A stretch of DNA of 43,839 bases from Acidobacteriota bacterium (lineage in GTDB: Bacteria > Acidobacteriota > Terriglobia > Terriglobales > Acidobacteriaceae). A program made the translations under genes and the position numbers. Numbering within the stretch: position 1 is the stretch's first letter; the number at the start of each line of letters is the position of its first letter. The stretch spans positions 1 through 43,839 of the forward strand of contig JAGWNX010000024.1 of assembly GCA_028872955.1 (NCBI GenBank), read 5' to 3'. Below the pieces are notes generated by a model. It had not been told where the DNA came from. It saw nothing but the letters and a program-made list of their open reading frames with translations, and did no database searches. Of the stretch, positions 27,776-33,801 are shown one piece after another.

Positions 27776-28531
27776 TCAGGCCTGCTGGTCGTTGTGCTCG
27801 AAGTAGGTCGCGGTGATGACGTCCTGCAACCGCTGGGTCAGGGCATCGGCGTCCCTTGTCGTCAGCCCCTCCGTAGACAGGGCGTCGCCCACCACCAGCT
27901 TGAGCGGCCTTGGGCTCAGGTGGTAGGTGTGCATGGGCAGCAGCTCATAGGTGCCTACCAGGGTGACCGGCACCAGCGGCACTCCGGCTTTGATGGCCAT
28001 AAAGGCGCAACCGGAGAGGTAGGCCTGCGGCTTGCCATCGAGCGTGCGGCCGCCCTCTGGAAACAGCACCAGCGGCATCCCCGCCCTCAACGCGGCCACA
28101 CCACGGTTCAGGCTGGCAATGGCGGAGCGAGCGCTCGACTGATCCACCGGCACCTGCCCGGAGCGGTTCAGATACCAGCCAATAAACGGGATCTTCCACA
28201 GTCCCTGCTTGGCGATGATACGAAACTGAAACGGCAGCCGACCAAAGAGGAGTGGCGTGTCGTAGTAGCTCAGGTGGTTGGAGGCGTAGACCGCCACCGG
28301 GTAGCGACCCAGCTTCTCCGCGCCGATCACCTGCACCGGCGAGAGGCTGATGCGCAGCAGGCTCCTCGCCCAGATCTGGGCGATCGCGTGCTGTTGTCGG
28401 CCAGAGCGGTCCCACAGCGCGCAGGTAAGTGCCAGGCAGCCAAAGAAGGTCGTCGAAAGCCCAATCAGCGGTGTCAGAACCAGATAGGTGAGCCAGCGCA
28501 TCGCCGGCGAAGCGGAGACCCTTTGCGTCAT
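27776..28531 (-). CDS. 1-acyl-sn-glycerol-3-phosphate acyltransferase (PlsC-like)
   Basis: PlsC-type enzymes add the second acyl chain to lysophosphatidate in phospholipid synthesis at the inner membrane. The 251-residue product has an N-terminal hydrophobic helix (about 12-38) and the acyltransferase blocks 'ASNHLSYYDTPLL' (HX4D, the catalytic motif), 'KIPFIGWYLNRSGQVPVDQ', 'PLVLFPEGGRTLDG' (FPEG motif) and 'VPVTLVGTYELLP'. Its ATG overlaps the folC stop in an ATGA, so it is probably translated by coupling. The acyl chain and acceptor preference are not visible from sequence; related lipid acyltransferases share these motifs. A parS site follows the stop immediately. Confidence 0.9.
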   Translation of the reverse strand: MTQRVSASPAMRWLTYLVLTPLIGLSTTFFGCLALTCALWDRSGRQQHAIAQIWARSLLRISLSPVQVIGAEKLGRYPVAVYASNHLSYYDTPLLFGRLPFQFRIIAKQGLWKIPFIGWYLNRSGQVPVDQSSARSAIASLNRGVAALRAGMPLVLFPEGGRTLDGKPQAYLSGCAFMAIKAGVPLVPVTLVGTYELLPMHTYHLSPRPLKLVVGDALSTEGLTTRDADALTQRLQDVITATYFEHNDQQA

Positions 28532-29994
28532 ACCATGACCTGCAGTGCCTCGTGGATCTCCCCGATAAGGTACACCGAGCCAGTCGCGATGACGATACCG
28601 CCGGGCGGCGTGCTCTGACGGGCCCAGGCCAGCGCCGTGGCAACATCCGGAGCTGCCTGTGCAGGAATGGAGAGGGCCTGCGCGGTGGCCATCAGGTCCT
28701 CAATCGGGGCAGCGCGCGGACTACGGATGGGCGCGAAGAAGATGTGGTCCTGCGGCCGCGAGGGCGAGCCATCGGGCGAGGAGTCAAACAGCGGCAACAG
28801 AATGCGCGCCATCTCGGTCAGCGACTTGTCGCGCAGACAGCTGAAGATCAACGTGCGCGGCTGTGCCTCCGGCAGCTGGGCCAGCGCGGCACGCAGCGTC
28901 CAGGCACCGGCAGGGTTGTGCGCCACATCGACCAGAACGGGCGGCTCTGAGCCTGGAATGAGCTGCAGACGGCCGGGCCAGTGCGTGGCGCGGATACCAG
29001 CGGCGATCGAGGCGTTGCTTATCTTGTAACTAACTTGGTTGCGTATTTCGCCGGGTGCCTGCGGCGGCGCGGCGTGCGGCGTACGCAGCTCCACCGCAGC
29101 GGCGATGGCGAGTGCCAGGTTGCGCTGCTGGTGCTGGCCAGAGAGGGGCGAGTCGACCAGAAGCGGCTCGCCTGCTACCTGCACAGTGTAGTGGTTGCGC
29201 GCAGGCAGTCCGGCGGCGGCACCTGTCACGGAGGGCAGCTGGGTGGGGATGTAGTCTGCGGCCGAGACGGCGTGCAGGTCCAGAGTTGCGGCCACCTCGC
29301 CAATGGCCTGGTTGGCCTCAGGGTGCTGGGGCAGGGTGATGAGGGTTCCGCCTGGTCGCAGGATGCCCGCCTTCTCGCGGGTGATGGCGCCAATCGTGTC
29401 GCCGAGATACTCCATGTGGTCCAGCGCAATGTCGGTGATGATGGACAGGAGCGGCTCGACGATGTTGGTGGCGTCCAGGCGCCCGCCCATGCCCACCTCC
29501 AGGATGGCGATCTCTACCTGCTGCTCCGCAAAGTACAGAAAGGCCATCGCCGTCAGGGTCTCAAAGTAGCTGGGCGCGTGAGGCAGGGTGCCGGCCGCCA
29601 CCAGCTGCTGCGCCGCGGCCTGCACCTGGAAGAACAGGCGGGCGAAGTCATCGTCTGCGATGGGCTGCAGCCGCGCAGCCCCATCGGGGATGGGGCGGGG
29701 CGAGATCTGGATGCGCTCGTTCACCCGCACCAGGTGGGGCGAGGTGTACAGGCCTGTTTTGTATCCTGCGGCGTTACAGATGCTGGCCAGCGTGGCGGCT
29801 GTGGAGCCTTTGCCGTTGGTGCCGGCGATCAGCACGGAGGCGAATCGCGTCTGGGGCTGGCCCAGAGCGGCCGCCAGCGTGCGCATGTGGGCCAGGTCAA
29901 ACTTTCGCCGCGGCGCCGCAGCGGTAGAGGCACTTCCTGGCGCGAGCTCAGGACCAAGGGCTTTCAGGTGTTCGAGCGCCGCAGTGTACGACAT
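28528..29994 (-). CDS. folC: Bifunctional folylpolyglutamate synthase/dihydrofolate synthase
   Basis: FolC adds glutamate to dihydropteroate and to folates, completing and retaining cellular folate. The 488-residue product is somewhat long for the family. It contains GTNGKGST (58-65, the ATP loop), 'GLYTSPHLVRVNERI', 'ILEVGMGGRLDATNIV', 'DHMEYLGDTIGAITREKAGI', 'SGQHQQRNLALAIAA' and 'VDVAHNPAGA', the expected Mur-ligase-like order. Extra length comes from Ala/Pro-rich loops around 280-310 and after 400. It starts the minus-strand series with plsC-like, C26, rsmG, parA and parB. The ATG has no ribosome binding site, but a -10-like box ends 6 bases before it, so the message may be leaderless. 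The ATGA overlap links it to the next gene. Confidence 0.95.
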   Translation of the reverse strand: MSYTAALEHLKALGPELAPGSASTAAAPRRKFDLAHMRTLAAALGQPQTRFASVLIAGTNGKGSTAATLASICNAAGYKTGLYTSPHLVRVNERIQISPRPIPDGAARLQPIADDDFARLFFQVQAAAQQLVAAGTLPHAPSYFETLTAMAFLYFAEQQVEIAILEVGMGGRLDATNIVEPLLSIITDIALDHMEYLGDTIGAITREKAGILRPGGTLITLPQHPEANQAIGEVAATLDLHAVSAADYIPTQLPSVTGAAAGLPARNHYTVQVAGEPLLVDSPLSGQHQQRNLALAIAAAVELRTPHAAPPQAPGEIRNQVSYKISNASIAAGIRATHWPGRLQLIPGSEPPVLVDVAHNPAGAWTLRAALAQLPEAQPRTLIFSCLRDKSLTEMARILLPLFDSSPDGSPSRPQDHIFFAPIRSPRAAPIEDLMATAQALSIPAQAAPDVATALAWARQSTPPGGIVIATGSVYLIGEIHEALQVMV

Positions 29995-30000
29995 GCTGCT

Positions 30001-30006
30001 ATTTTA
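30001..30006 (-). promoter_or_regulatory. Possible -10 box giving a leaderless folC transcript
   Basis: On the minus strand TAAAAT (five of six to consensus) ends six bases before the folC ATG, with no ribosome binding site between. Transcription would start at or next to the A of the ATG. No convincing -35 is at 16-18 bases, which lowers confidence. Confidence 0.35.
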
Positions 30007-30243
30007 GGCGATTCCGTCGCCGCAATCCCGAATTGGCAAGCGTGATGCTGACGAGGAAGTGACGATGCCACCAAAGTGGTATGGCCGAGTCGGAAAGTGG
30101 GATAGAGAGACTGCCGCGAACGGGCGATAGTGAGGACAGAGCTGGACGAGGCATCTGTCTCACCCGGCAAGGCTTTTTGAATTTGGTCTCAACCAATCTG
30201 CCAGGGTTCAACACAGTAACTCTCGGGCGCAAGGAGAAGGTGT

Positions 30244-30378
30244 ATGCACGTAGCGATGGGTCTGGCTTTCAGCTTGATTTTGGTGGCGCCGTTTTACGGG
30301 CGCTGGCGTGCCAACGTATGGCTGCGTCGGCATGTTCACGAGGAGATGCACGCTGGCCAGGTCGTGGAACAGGTTTAG
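30244..30378 (+). CDS. Small predicted membrane-associated protein, 44 residues
   Basis: This short frame is not a known family to me. It reads MHVAMGLAFSLILVAPFYGR, a hydrophobic N-terminal stretch that could span or enter the membrane, followed by a basic, aromatic part (RWRANVWLRRHVHEE) and a short charged tail ending EQV. Support is independent of length: AAGGAG lies 7 bases before the ATG, and 52 bases after the TAG is a strong intrinsic terminator on the same strand (30431-30467). So a short, self-contained plus-strand transcription unit sits between the divergent folC gene and the converging tspO gene. No promoter could be assigned in the 249 bases upstream. Function is unknown. Confidence 0.6.
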   Translation: MHVAMGLAFSLILVAPFYGRWRANVWLRRHVHEEMHAGQVVEQV

Positions 30379-30430
30379 CTCCTAAGACAGGGATTCGGCC
30401 TTGGGCCTCCTCTCCTGAGTAGACTTTTCT

Positions 30431-30467
30431 GGACCGTTAGCCGGGCTGGCGCGGTCCTTCTTTTTTT
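30431..30467 (+). terminator. Intrinsic terminator after the 44-residue ORF
   Basis: GGACCG pairs with CGGTCC (30431-30436 with 30452-30457) and an inner GCC/GGC extends the hairpin. It is followed by TTCTTTTTTT (30458-30467). The T-run is only on the plus strand, so it serves a plus-strand transcript and not tspO, which ends at 30486 on the other strand. Confidence 0.85.
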
Positions 30468-30485
30468 GCGGTGGGCAGGGTCTGG

Positions 30486-31031
30486 CTAGTTCAGGTGCAC
30501 CAGCGCAAGGTTCAGCACGCCGGCAAAGGTAACCCACGCCAGGTAGGGCGCCAGCAGCAACGCTGCAACGCGACTGATGCGTGCGAAGAGTGCCATGGTG
30601 ACGGCGATGGCCAGCCATAGAACCACCAGCACCATCGCGGCTGCCAGCAACTGGTGCAGCCGGAAGAAGACGGGCGTCCAGGCGAAGTTGAGCACCAGTT
30701 GCAGCCAGAAGGCTCGCAAGGCATCGCTACGCCGGGTCTCTCCAGGGTTAGCGTCCCAGGCCTCAGCCTGCTGCGGCACCTGCTGCCACACCAGCCAGGC
30801 GGCGACAGCCATCAGCAGGTAGAGCGTAGTCCACACCGGCGCAAACACCCAGTTGGGTGGATTGAACGACGGCTTGGTCAGGCCTGCGTACCAGGTGGGG
30901 ATCTCGCGAATGCTGAACAGCGAGGCGGTAGCGCCGACCGCGAGACACAGCAGCACCATCCCGGCAAGCGCCAGCCCGCGTCGCGGACGTCGGGCGCCTG
31001 TGGCGATCAGCGGTGTGGCATGCTCGGGCAT
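30486..31031 (-). CDS. tspO: TspO/MBR family membrane protein
   Basis: TspO proteins are five-helix membrane proteins that bind tetrapyrroles and other hydrophobic molecules and act in stress responses. The 181-residue product fits: 'IPTWYAGLTKPSFNPPNWVFAPVWTTLYLLMAVAAWLVW' carries the signature PSFNPP and WVFAPVWT segments, 'LQLVLNFAWTPVFF' the conserved helix III-IV part, and 'LLLAPYLAWVTFAGVLNLAL' the last helix. An Arg-rich N-terminal tail of about 15 residues precedes helix 1. Two starts are possible: ATG 31031, with GGGAGG 11 bases upstream, or ATG 31064 without one; I chose 31031. The loop between helices 2 and 3 (QQAEAWDANPGETRRSD) is longer than usual. Confidence 0.9.
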   Translation of the reverse strand: MPEHATPLIATGARRPRRGLALAGMVLLCLAVGATASLFSIREIPTWYAGLTKPSFNPPNWVFAPVWTTLYLLMAVAAWLVWQQVPQQAEAWDANPGETRRSDALRAFWLQLVLNFAWTPVFFRLHQLLAAAMVLVVLWLAIAVTMALFARISRVAALLLAPYLAWVTFAGVLNLALVHLN

Positions 31032-31151
31032 CGCGGCAACAACCTCCCTCGGCAACGTGCGCATCCAGAGTACACGCGACCCGTGAACCTGGGGGCAAAG
31101 CGACTGCGAATCGCGCCATCACATGAGAGGGCAGGGAGGGGAGCACGCCAC

Positions 31152-31198
31152 AAGAAAGCGCGGCAAGGCGCGACGGGGAGGGTCGTCGGCCTTGCCGC
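31152..31198 (-). terminator. Long hairpin after the small CxxC protein gene
   Basis: GCGGCAAGGC (31160-31169) pairs perfectly with GCCTTGCCGC (31189-31198), with an inner CGAC/GTCG stem. On the minus strand the hairpin is followed by CTTTCTTG, so it can act as terminator for the gene at 31269-31577, about 70 bases past its stop. Confidence 0.65.
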
Positions 31199-31268
31199 AA
31201 GCGGTGGCAGTGCGGTGGAACGCAGGGCGAACCCATCCGGCGAGCGCCGGGGGCTCTGAACTTGGGTG

Positions 31269-31577
31269 CTACTTGATGGCGCCGGTCAGGTCCAGCTCGG
31301 CCGGGGCTGCGCGGCGAATGGTCGAGAGGCCACCCAGCAGGGCTGCGCCGGAGAACTGTGCCGGACCCTGCCACTCCGGCCAGGTGAAGGGACTGGCGGG
31401 GTGTGCTGCAGCGGTCTGATCCGTAGCGTGCTGGTGAGCCAGTTCACGGGCCACCTCAGCGCGCATGGAGGCCTGCTCCTCGAGCGATGTGCGCTCAAAG
31501 TACAGGCGGAAGCCCTGTCCGCAGACAGCGCACTGGATGTCCTGCTTCTCGTTCGATTTTCTGACTAGAACCTGCAT
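31269..31577 (-). CDS. Small protein of unknown function with a CxxC pair
   Basis: The 102-residue product is not recognised. Near the N-terminus 'DIQCAVCGQGFRLYFERTSLEEQASMRAEVARELAHQH' combines a single CxxC (residues 16-19), which could be half of a zinc-binding knuckle, with an amphipathic helix containing several Glu and Arg. A Pro-rich middle ('HPASPFTWPEWQG') leads to a short tail ending GAIK. No signal or membrane helix. The start ATG 31577 has only a weak AGG nearby. Its reality is supported by a long hairpin with a T-rich side after the stop and by codon use like that of neighbouring genes. It is divergent from thrS, with 181 bases between. Confidence 0.65.
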   Translation of the reverse strand: MQVLVRKSNEKQDIQCAVCGQGFRLYFERTSLEEQASMRAEVARELAHQHATDQTAAAHPASPFTWPEWQGPAQFSGAALLGGLSTIRRAAPAELDLTGAIK

Positions 31578-31758
31578 GGCGACCTACTCTGGCTGTCGTG
31601 TGGGGAGTATCTTCACACGCTGGTGGAGATCACGACGTAACGCAACAGTAGCGCCCGCGTGTTTCAGATTGAATACAACCAATGGGTGAGGTGGGCGACC
31701 GACGGTGCGGAGCCTGACGGCGGAGGTGGGATGCTCGGAAAAAGGCGGTGAACCAGCT

Positions 31759-33801
31759 ATGCTGTTAACTGTGAGCAACGCAACGATTTCGATTCAGCTT
31801 CCTGATGGCTCCGTACGCGAAGTGGCGCGCGGCACGACCCCGTATGACATTGCCCTGAGCATCTCGCCCCGGCTGGCTGCTGCCGTGGTGGTGGCCCGCA
31901 TCCGGCCGCTGGCAACGACTGCCGTGACGGCTACTGCCGCAGACGAGCCCTCGGAAGAGGCGATGTATGGTGCCGCTGTGAGCGGCGAGCGCCTGGTGGA
32001 CCTGGCGGCTCCGCTGACCGAGGATGTAGCCCTGGAGCTGCTGAAGGAGAACGACGAGGCGGCGCTGCGCGTGGTGCGTCACTCGGCGGCCCACGTCATG
32101 GCGACGGCCATTCTGGAGCTGTTTCCTGAGGCCAAGCTGGGCCACGGCCCCGCGACCGATTCGGGCTTCTTCTACGACATCTACCGCGAGACGCCGTTTA
32201 CTGAGGCTGACCTGGCCGCGATTGAAACGCGCATGGCCGAGGTGGTGGCACGCGACGAGAAGTTTGTGCGCGAAGAAGAGTCGCGCGAGGCCGGGCTGGC
32301 CGAGTACCAGGCCAAGGGCGAGTTCATGAAGGTCCACTTCATCGAGCGCTTCACGCACGCGGGCGAGACCATCTCGCTGTACCGCAACGGCGGCTTTGTG
32401 GACTTCTGCCGCGGCCCGCACGTGCCGTCGACCGGACGCGTCAAGGCCTTCAAGCTGACCAGTGTGGCCGGTGCCTATTGGCTGGGCGACGAGAAGAACC
32501 AGCAGCTGCAGCGCGTGTATGGCACAGCCTTCTTCAACGGCAAGGACATGGAGGCGCACTTCAAGCGGCTGGAGGAGATCAAGGCCCGCGACCATCGCGT
32601 GCTGGGGCGGCAGCTTGACCTGTTCAGCATTCAGGAGGTGGCAGGCGCGGGCCTCATCTTCTGGCATCCGAAGGGCGGCCTGATCCGCAAGACCATGGAA
32701 GACTGGATGCGCGAAGAGTGTATCCGTCGTGGTTACGATATGGTGTTCACCCCCCACATCATGCGGCGCGAGCTTTGGAAGATCTCTGGCCACGACGGCT
32801 TCTACGGGCAGAATATGTATCCGCCGATGGAGCTGGACGATGCGGAGTACCGGCTGAAGCCGATGAACTGCCCGGGCCACATTCTGATCTACAAGAACTC
32901 GCCCAAGAGCTATCGCGACCTGCCCGCGCGCTATGCGGAGCTGGGCAACGTCTACCGGTTTGAGCGCTCGGGCACCATGCACGGCCTGCTGCGCGTGCGC
33001 GGCTTTACCCAGGATGACGCTCACATCTTCTGCACGCCGCAGCAGATTGAGGGCGAGGTGGCGGCCTGCATTGAGTTTGCTGAGAGCGTGCTGAAGACCT
33101 TCGGCTTTGAAGAGTTCAAGGTCGAGCTATCCACGTGGGACCCGAACGACCGCAAGAGCTACGTAGGCTCGGAGGAGAACTGGCTGTTCGCGTCGGGATC
33201 ACTCAAAAAGGTGCTGGAGGCCAAGGGGATTCCGTATCGCGAGATTCCCGGCGAAGCAGCCTTCTACGGCCCCAAGATCGACATCAAGCTGGTGGACGTA
33301 CTGGGCCGCATGTGGCAGCTCTCCACCGTGCAGTTTGACTTCAACCTGCCGCAGCGCTTTGAGCTGGAGTACAAGGGCGAGGACGGTGAGCTGCACCGGC
33401 CGGTGATGGTGCATCGCGCGCTGTTCGGCAGCGTGGAGCGGTTCTTCGGCGTGCTGATCGAGCACTACGCCGGGGCGTTTCCATTCTGGCTGGCACCGGT
33501 GCAGGTGGGCCTGGTCCCCATCAGCGAAAAGCACCTGGAGTATGCGCAGCGTGTGAAGGCCACGCTGGAGGCCGCAGGCGTGCGCGTGGAGCTGGATACG
33601 CGCAACGAGAAGATGAATGCCAAGATCCGGGACTTTACGCTGCAGAAGGTGCCGTTTGTGCTGATTCTGGGCGATAAGGAGTCTGGCAGCGGCAGCGTGA
33701 GTGTGCGCACGCGGGGCAAGGGCGACGAAGGCAGTGTCGCACTGGAGAGCTTCCTGGAGCGGACGCAGGCGCTGCAGGCGGCGAAGGGTGTGGCGCTGTA
33801 G
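31759..33801 (+). CDS. thrS: Threonyl-tRNA synthetase
   Basis: ThrRS charges tRNA-Thr and removes mis-attached serine. The 680-residue product is in the normal size range. In order: a TGS domain ('ISIQLPDGSVREVARGTTPYDIA'), the editing domain with 'RHSAAHVMA' (H-x3-H near residue 107) and 'FCRGPHVPSTG', then the class II core with 'MNCPGH' (zinc Cys near 371), 'GFTQDDAHIFC' (zinc His near 422), and 'MVHRALFGSVERFFGVLIEHYAG' (motif 3 and the third zinc ligand), and the anticodon-binding domain ('VGLVPISEKHLEYA', 'PFVLILGDKE'). ATG 31759 was chosen because the TGS domain begins there; an in-frame start 18 codons earlier lacks support. No T-box-like leader was seen. Confidence 0.97.
   Translation: MLLTVSNATISIQLPDGSVREVARGTTPYDIALSISPRLAAAVVVARIRPLATTAVTATAADEPSEEAMYGAAVSGERLVDLAAPLTEDVALELLKENDEAALRVVRHSAAHVMATAILELFPEAKLGHGPATDSGFFYDIYRETPFTEADLAAIETRMAEVVARDEKFVREEESREAGLAEYQAKGEFMKVHFIERFTHAGETISLYRNGGFVDFCRGPHVPSTGRVKAFKLTSVAGAYWLGDEKNQQLQRVYGTAFFNGKDMEAHFKRLEEIKARDHRVLGRQLDLFSIQEVAGAGLIFWHPKGGLIRKTMEDWMREECIRRGYDMVFTPHIMRRELWKISGHDGFYGQNMYPPMELDDAEYRLKPMNCPGHILIYKNSPKSYRDLPARYAELGNVYRFERSGTMHGLLRVRGFTQDDAHIFCTPQQIEGEVAACIEFAESVLKTFGFEEFKVELSTWDPNDRKSYVGSEENWLFASGSLKKVLEAKGIPYREIPGEAAFYGPKIDIKLVDVLGRMWQLSTVQFDFNLPQRFELEYKGEDGELHRPVMVHRALFGSVERFFGVLIEHYAGAFPFWLAPVQVGLVPISEKHLEYAQRVKATLEAAGVRVELDTRNEKMNAKIRDFTLQKVPFVLILGDKESGSGSVSVRTRGKGDEGSVALESFLERTQALQAAKGVAL

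Follow-up and report, generated by a model that had tools for sequence, protein, structure and literature searches.

Does the short stretch that separates folC from tspO on an acidobacterial contig hold a gene for a small protein, or is it the source of a small RNA in which an ORF is incidental? The window, that is, the whole 43,839-nt stretch of DNA that was analyzed, carries a short plus-strand ORF at this place, and the original prediction had named a small protein and an sRNA as the two options. Tiny genes are easily missed by annotation; here, sequence, position, and control signals were all found to be kept among relatives. The bacteria that carry this peptide family are probably soil acidobacteria.

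The small ORF and its surroundings

The features of the locus are collected in Table 1. The AAGGAG motif that had been placed 7 bases before the ATG was confirmed, with AAGGTGT as the 7-nt spacer. Because the minus-strand side of the hairpin runs into AGAAAAGTC, the T-run belongs to the plus strand only, again as predicted. Both genes that flank the ORF, folC and tspO, are on the minus strand, and thrS, the next plus-strand gene identified, begins beyond the hairpin.

Table 1. Positions of the small ORF, its candidate signals, and its neighbors in the window
Feature	Position	Strand	Evidence or remark
folC, divergent neighbor (context)	28528..29994	-	TIGR01499, E 2.3e-98; retained beside the small ORF in relatives
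AAAGTGGTATGG, which repeats the AAGTGGGATAG box imperfectly farther upstream and may be a second half-site	30073..30084	+	sequence reading; similar copy in G014
Box B, GTGGGAT	30097..30103	+	10-nt stretch 30095-30104, mean pairwise identity 0.91 in 14 close units; flanking spacers 0.42-0.53
Box C, GATAGT	30126..30131	+	exactly 22 nt after box B; identity 0.96
Ribosome binding site (SD), AAGGAG	30231..30236	+	GGAG-type SD in 17/17 close units; identity 0.74
44-codon ORF, predicted single-helix membrane peptide MHVAMGLAFSLILVAPFYGRWRANVWLRRHVHEEMHAGQVVEQV	30244..30378	+	start ATG at 30244, stop TAG ends at 30378 (stop included); homologues, alignments A1/A2, pN/pS, AlphaFold2
Intrinsic terminator, hairpin GGACCGTTAGCCGGGCTGGCGCGGTCC (30431-30457) and T-tract TTCTTTTTTT (30458-30467)	30431..30467	+	conserved in relatives
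tspO, convergent neighbor (context)	30486..31064	-	PF03073, E 3.9e-49; only some relatives have it
thrS, next plus-strand gene identified	ORF 31705-33801	+	TIGR00418; start lies past the hairpin

A simple terminator scan of 28000-32500 gave six sites, including a plus-strand site at 30443-30457, against 1.9 expected, so the hairpin alone is weak evidence. When SD-led ATG ORFs of 25-70 codons were sought throughout the window on either strand, six turned up, and only the 44-codon ORF was followed within 110 nt by a terminator (fold energy of -10 or lower and at least 6 T in 8). The best named relatives of the neighboring TspO came from a Silvibacterium MAG (51% identity) and an Acidobacteria MAG (53% identity), which is compatible with the acidobacterial source assumed in the original prediction but no proof of it. 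Eighty TspO loci tried as a source of homologues were set aside, because a narrow motif scan found the small ORF in none of them and gave one chance match (L065).

The 44-codon frame is conserved under purifying selection

A single-sequence search of 41 genomes matched seven other genomes of the genus with E values of 7e-15 to 1e-10, above a set of weaker matches. With a nine-row profile (A1), the homologue search that had been proposed detected the family in 31 of 62 genus genomes, source included (best E 1.3e-28), and in 25 of the 47 of good quality, leaving about half of the genus without an A1 match. A 26-row profile brought the count to 32 of the 62 genomes at E ≤ 1e-3; at E ≤ 0.05 it was 37, with the additional genomes doubtful. 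In samples of the family (200 genomes) and the class (250 genomes), A1 matches occurred in 6 and 18 genomes, respectively; all six and 15 of the 18 belonged to the same genus as the source and three were weak, so that no convincing 44-aa homologue was found outside the source genus in either sample. The weak non-genus matches L113-L115 were rejected, L113 and L114 having no in-frame Met and the frame of L115 not being returned by the filter.

The ORF was exactly 44 codons long in all 17 close units, a set that leaves out G325 (the same as G208 there). The original prediction had opposed a frame lost among relatives to a hairpin that is kept; both proved to be kept, the 44-codon frame in 17/17 close units and the hairpin too. 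The Ka/Ks comparison that it had also suggested covered 15 pairs: the 13 with more than one difference gave pN/pS values between 0.04 and 0.45 (0.04-0.45), and the remaining two have one base difference each. The changes fell mostly at third codon positions, and five dS values were saturated. Frame 2 was likewise stop-free in 10 of the 17 units and some antisense frames were open as well, so an open frame by itself is no evidence, and it is the amino acid pattern that counts. Frame, start, and length of the 44-aa gene are thus conserved under purifying selection. Of the two options, this frame conservation and the low pN/pS favor the small protein, and as far as sequence comparison can tell, the ORF is almost certainly a genuine protein gene.

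The segments of the unit differed in conservation. Among 14 of the 17 close units, identity was 0.74 for the SD, 0.74 for codons 1-27, 0.57 for codons 28-44, and 0.75 for the hairpin, compared with 0.26-0.53 for spacers and UTRs (5′ UTR 0.48, 3′ UTR 0.26). A non-coding or dual-function sRNA, with the ORF incidental, would agree with the shortness of the unit and its well-conserved hairpin, and the stretch from stop to hairpin also seems conserved in G094, G010, G048, and G023. The amino acid constraint, the third-position differences, the constant length, and the low identity of both UTRs speak against it, and no Rfam model reached its gathering threshold in the window. We therefore regard an sRNA with an incidental ORF as highly improbable, and a purely non-coding one as very unlikely.

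A predicted one-helix membrane peptide

The predicted hydrophobic N-terminal helix with a basic aromatic tail was recovered as a helix at about residues 3-19 followed by the segment G-R-W-R-A-N-V-W-L-K/R. In the nine A1 rows, A4, F9, A15, P16, F17, G19, R20, W21, R22, A23, N24, W26, L27, and E42 were invariant, and the core motif of the family reads AP-F-x-GRWRANVWL. G19, W21, R22, and W26 were still invariant in the 26-row alignment A2, which includes two paralogues from elsewhere in their genomes and omits several near-identical rows and the copy of G452, which has Tyr at R22. The core reads AP-LIG-IWRGHVWAKAN instead in distant units that adjoin folC or thrS. The paralogues away from folC and thrS carry GRWRVYRW (L187:4694-4984, in G051:C3) and GKWRAKVWL (L189, in G385:C2, minus strand).

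The best 16-residue mean Kyte-Doolittle hydropathy of the peptide was 2.07, and AlphaFold2, given the single sequence, modeled one helix over residues 2-42 (mean pLDDT 83.7, pTM 0.41). On the strength of these predictions, the product is very probably a membrane peptide whose single hydrophobic helix is long enough to span the membrane once. Since Arg/Trp-rich residues follow the helix, we infer one membrane pass with the C terminus inside; by the positive-inside rule, the helix would span the inner membrane and leave the C-terminal segment in the cytoplasm.

CydX, KdpF, and AcrZ are small single-pass membrane proteins of 30-50 residues with one helix, and such proteins are often unannotated. 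The 44-aa family resembles them in size, in its one helix, and in its tiny gene, but unlike them it lacks a convincing match in Pfam, NCBIfam, PHROG, or the PDB. No curated family in Pfam, NCBIfam, PHROG, PADLOC, or the PDB fits it; among searches with three proteins each, with one protein, with 26 members, and with the profile, the best E value was 0.021 for the 26 members and 0.53 for the profile, and the PDB gave weak matches only. No such family was described among the titles and abstracts found for small acidobacterial proteins and for families of this kind, most subscription journals lying outside the search, and four taxon names sought in PMC10903887 had no occurrence there. The family is so far unnamed and without a curated model.

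Genomic position and inheritance

In most units (27 of 33), folC and the small ORF are divergently oriented and no more than 2.6 kb apart; for the 17 close units, the distance to the start of folC is 224-259 nt. folC and thrS flank it in 20 of 32 fetched neighborhoods, and three more adjoin thrS, with folC absent from the fetched stretch. Neither gene adjoins the ORF in G010 or at two paralogues (G051:C3; G385:C2 at 5.11 Mb). tspO was present in 6 of the 32 neighborhoods only and is therefore not a fixed partner. On a 63-row folC tree, the presence of the ORF needs 8 label changes, compared with 20.6 when labels were shuffled, and at least 6 of the 8 are forced by well-supported branches; 27 of the 31 genomes that gave no A1 match had a usable folC, and some absences are uncertain, as in G007 with just 212 nt upstream of folC. 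The test shows clustering only, a pattern that vertical descent with losses would produce.

This distribution bears on the nature of the peptide. Type I toxins such as Fst and Ldr are small hydrophobic peptides encoded in short units, and the present one might likewise damage or depolarize the membrane once derepressed, with an antisense RNA restraining it. Its size, its single hydrophobic helix with a basic-aromatic tail, and its short self-contained unit would suit that role, but one fixed chromosomal site in most genomes, a presence clustered on the folC tree, and purifying selection would not; in addition, tblastn against plasmids gave no match to the 44-aa peptide. Together with the evidence on control signals given below, a type I toxin appears quite unlikely, and less likely than an accessory or regulatory peptide.

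Tiny subunits are also known in respiratory complexes and efflux pumps. Instead of being a regulator, the peptide could accordingly serve one specific membrane complex, either as a structural subunit or as an assembly factor, a role in keeping with the strong conservation of GRWRANVWL after the helix and with the fixed length in close units. However, no conserved neighbor of the 44-aa gene codes for a subunit of a membrane complex, and the gene is missing from about half of the genus. We consider this role unlikely.

Candidate control signals

Two boxes upstream of the SD, AAGTGGGATA and GATAGT, were the best conserved segments of the unit in the 14 close units (0.91 and 0.96). When the 44-aa family was pooled with a second peptide family described below, the relaxed form of the pair, GTGnnAT-N22-[CG]ATnnT, occurred in 48 of the 81 units, the window unit among them. 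The 44-aa family has it in 23 of 33 units, with 131-157 nt from element to ATG, and the other units have it in 25 of 48, at a distance of 75-100 nt, so that it is universal in neither family. The 33 units that lack it include one copy in the source genome, C192, and all five of its orthologues that were tested. Over the 81 units, other spacings from 14 to 31 gave 0-3 matches, the reverse complement gave 0/81, and shuffles gave 0.08%. Because the motif was found post hoc from these units and then relaxed, and because the units are not independent, many being close relatives, the shuffle figure overstates the strength of the element, and the spacing control is the better one. A narrower motif, AGTGGRAT-N22-GATNNT, had 15 matches in nine of 14 whole genomes, 11 at small-ORF units and four elsewhere, versus 0 in the reversed control; G013, G450, and G404 were unmatched because their box begins GGTGG. 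A consensus sigma-70 scan found no sense-strand promoter, either at the 44-codon ORF or in the 14 close units. Either box might supply the -10: box C resembles one, and box B, in many second-family units, also looks like an extended -10. The pair is thus a putative promoter or control element of the 44-aa gene.

The 5′ UTR of the L162-L167 subgroup and its relatives (e.g., G013) contains a well-conserved inverted repeat, TTGCAACATGCAATGTTTTGCAA, which is absent from the window. A hairpin proximal to the SD, which looked conserved by eye, was dropped, as the 42 nt before the SD were no more structured than the upstream control in three of four groups. The mean fold z values, each versus its control, were -0.40 versus -0.59 in the 44-aa family (33 units), -0.56 versus -0.68 in 26 second-family units, and -0.60 versus -0.55 in 14 genus second-family units (two of 16, G014b and G404b, having been lost by the search pattern). 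The value was -1.17 versus 0.17 in the 'fol' group of eight, the only group taken as below its control, which includes L237 (G080), whose position beside folC is presumed.

The same region gave mixed indications on the toxin. With the transcript start assumed, the predicted SD had a mean unpaired value of 0.29 versus 0.36 in UTR-shuffled sequences and was less open than these in 13 of 21 units, with values of 0.03-0.10 in G000 (the source genome), G014, G457, and G051, as a toxin gene might have it; in the other 8 of the 21, the close relative G020 included, the SD was at least as open as in the shuffled sequences. That three of the four groups showed no unusual structure in the 42 nt ahead of the SD also tells against a toxin. 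The count of sigma-70-like antisense sites, 0 in 14 units, may do so too, though the consensus scan behind it would overlook non-consensus promoters and likewise yields no sense promoter.

Under a permissive rule, 27 of 33 units have a hairpin followed by a T-rich stretch downstream of the stop (weak in G051b), and none was detected in G042, G460, G385b, G050, G452, and G009. GGACCG-type hairpins from relatives were aligned (A5; 22 rows, 21 distinct), and in the 21 distinct ones pairing reached 98.1% of the cells in the outer stem and 70.5% in the inner stem, fractions that are biased upward because the hairpins were picked by eye. Three rows replace A-U by G-C at one outer-stem pair, two outer pairs are invariant, and 2 of 500 shuffles reached the covariation score; covariation support for the hairpin is modest. 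GGACCG-N8-24-CGGTCCTT was rejected as a genome-wide repeat, with 0-5 copies per genome and 78 in 62 genomes versus 68 in the reversed control; in the source genome (G000), the terminator site is one of two places where it occurs. A stretch resembling GTTGTACTGCANCACTCACTGAATGAGCGCA recurs between stop and hairpin in L179, L180, L183, and L190 (G094, G010, G048, and G023, respectively). It persists in G023 despite a diverged protein and is possibly an extra RNA or DNA element.

A second family of one-helix peptides

Another small one-helix ORF was found upstream of folC in six genus genomes without an A1 match. Four of these (G338, G006, G458, and G046) are of the type M.D...AL.F.AM..AP..VA and pass an automatic filter for hydrophobic SD-led ORFs, that of G458 from an internal GTG, and two (G005 and G449) look by eye like divergent 44-aa types. 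In G127, of another genus, a member of the same type (A4) also lies upstream of folC. The filter is weak alone because it selected 6 of 56 regions upstream of folC versus 3 of 56 reverse complements. A profile built from the folC-site members and G127 revealed a multicopy family in 23 of 150 genomes of the taxonomic family, from 13 genera (E ≤ 0.01), and a 24-row A4 profile matched 49 of 399 class genomes from nine genera (E ≤ 0.001). Most copies are 30-33 aa long, with the consensus MHDLLIALxFxAMVxAPAxVAAxSG. A set of 26 second-family units was drawn from these copies, two weak ones (L259 6651 and L264 1816) being left out.

The source genome has two A4 copies, on contigs C192 and C199, and the element precedes the latter only. 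The C199 copy (G000:C199:13101-13196, minus strand; L256:2599-2700) is a 33-codon one-helix ORF, MVHDLVLAMVFLGMILAPALIAMRSGKEEKEPS, with AAAGGAG and the element; it adjoins an M28 peptidase gene, a site kept in nine fetched relatives. The C192 copy (G000:C192:44285-44374, plus strand; L255:2786-2878) is a 30-codon one-helix ORF, MQDVLVALVFVAMVMAPAFVAMNAFGEKNR, without the element, downstream of a ClpA/B-type AAA gene, and seven fetched relatives have same-site copies.

Second-family copies adjoin mutually unrelated genes. The C199 copy lies next to the M28 peptidase gene and near an ORF end that we take to resemble ccmE, and genes near a G161 copy may be ccmC and ccmB, which would be in line with a subunit of a membrane complex. 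The matches of the second family to FixS and ATP19, however, were far below their cut-offs.

Tandem A4 copies occur in G161:C10 (three) and G127:C235 (two). Among the fetched loci, L253:2659-3748 holds three copies, L254:2635-3705 two, and L309 three; the duplication in L254 looks recent because its two copies share almost identical stretches of about 250 nt. It is these tandem copies, together with the predicted SD pairing, that make a toxin conceivable, since a multicopy, sometimes tandem family would be in keeping with one. Small hydrophobic peptides and short units are shared with Fst and Ldr, as are tandem copies in the second family; unlike Fst and Ldr, the 44-aa gene has a fixed site, is under purifying selection, and yielded no antisense signal in the consensus scan and no match to a toxin model.

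The A4 and 44-aa families were aligned by hhalign with a probability of 2.7% and an E value of 0.017 over 16 columns, a profile match too weak to establish homology. Both have Ala-Pro near the end of the helix at the same distance from Phe, both have GTGnnAT-N22-[CG]ATnnT in part of their units, and both use the folC site, the A4 family in four genus genomes and G127. In contrast to the 44-aa family, A4 is shorter, lacks GRWRANVWL, and is multicopy. Among 34 genus genomes, with the first family scored by the A1 profile, 20 carried both families, three the second only, none the first only, and 11 neither. What ties the two families together is the element that part of each carries, their common use of the folC site, and this co-occurrence, which shared descent could explain. 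To judge from these sequence features, the 44-aa gene most likely belongs to a dispersed set of one-helix peptides, many with a common element.

Proposed role

The best overall explanation is that the 44-aa gene probably encodes a single-pass inner-membrane accessory or regulatory peptide. It would stand alone as a protein gene, equipped with a control element upstream, a ribosome binding site, and an intrinsic terminator that are all its own. Its 44-residue product would consist of the hydrophobic helix, with the conserved Ala-Pro near its end, and the basic-aromatic segment that follows, and through the Ala-Pro helix and a Trp/Arg collar it may pack against a larger membrane protein or complex. 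Against this reading, folC, thrS, and tspO offer no obvious membrane partner, the second-family copies adjoin unrelated genes, and about half of the genus lacks the gene. We give about even chances to the role itself being accessory or regulatory and not that of a toxin or something else.

More tentatively, the gene might be a node of an undescribed regulon of dispersed, stand-alone one-helix membrane peptides in one bacterial family, many under the common element and lacking a consensus sigma-70 promoter, that serve in membrane stress or in tuning complexes and tend to be kept or lost together. A precise candidate regulatory element common to the 44-aa family and to part of a second, genome-scattered peptide family, and present upstream of two of the source genome's three peptide genes, offers an entry point to an unstudied membrane function, and all three of these genes are short enough for tagging or deletion.
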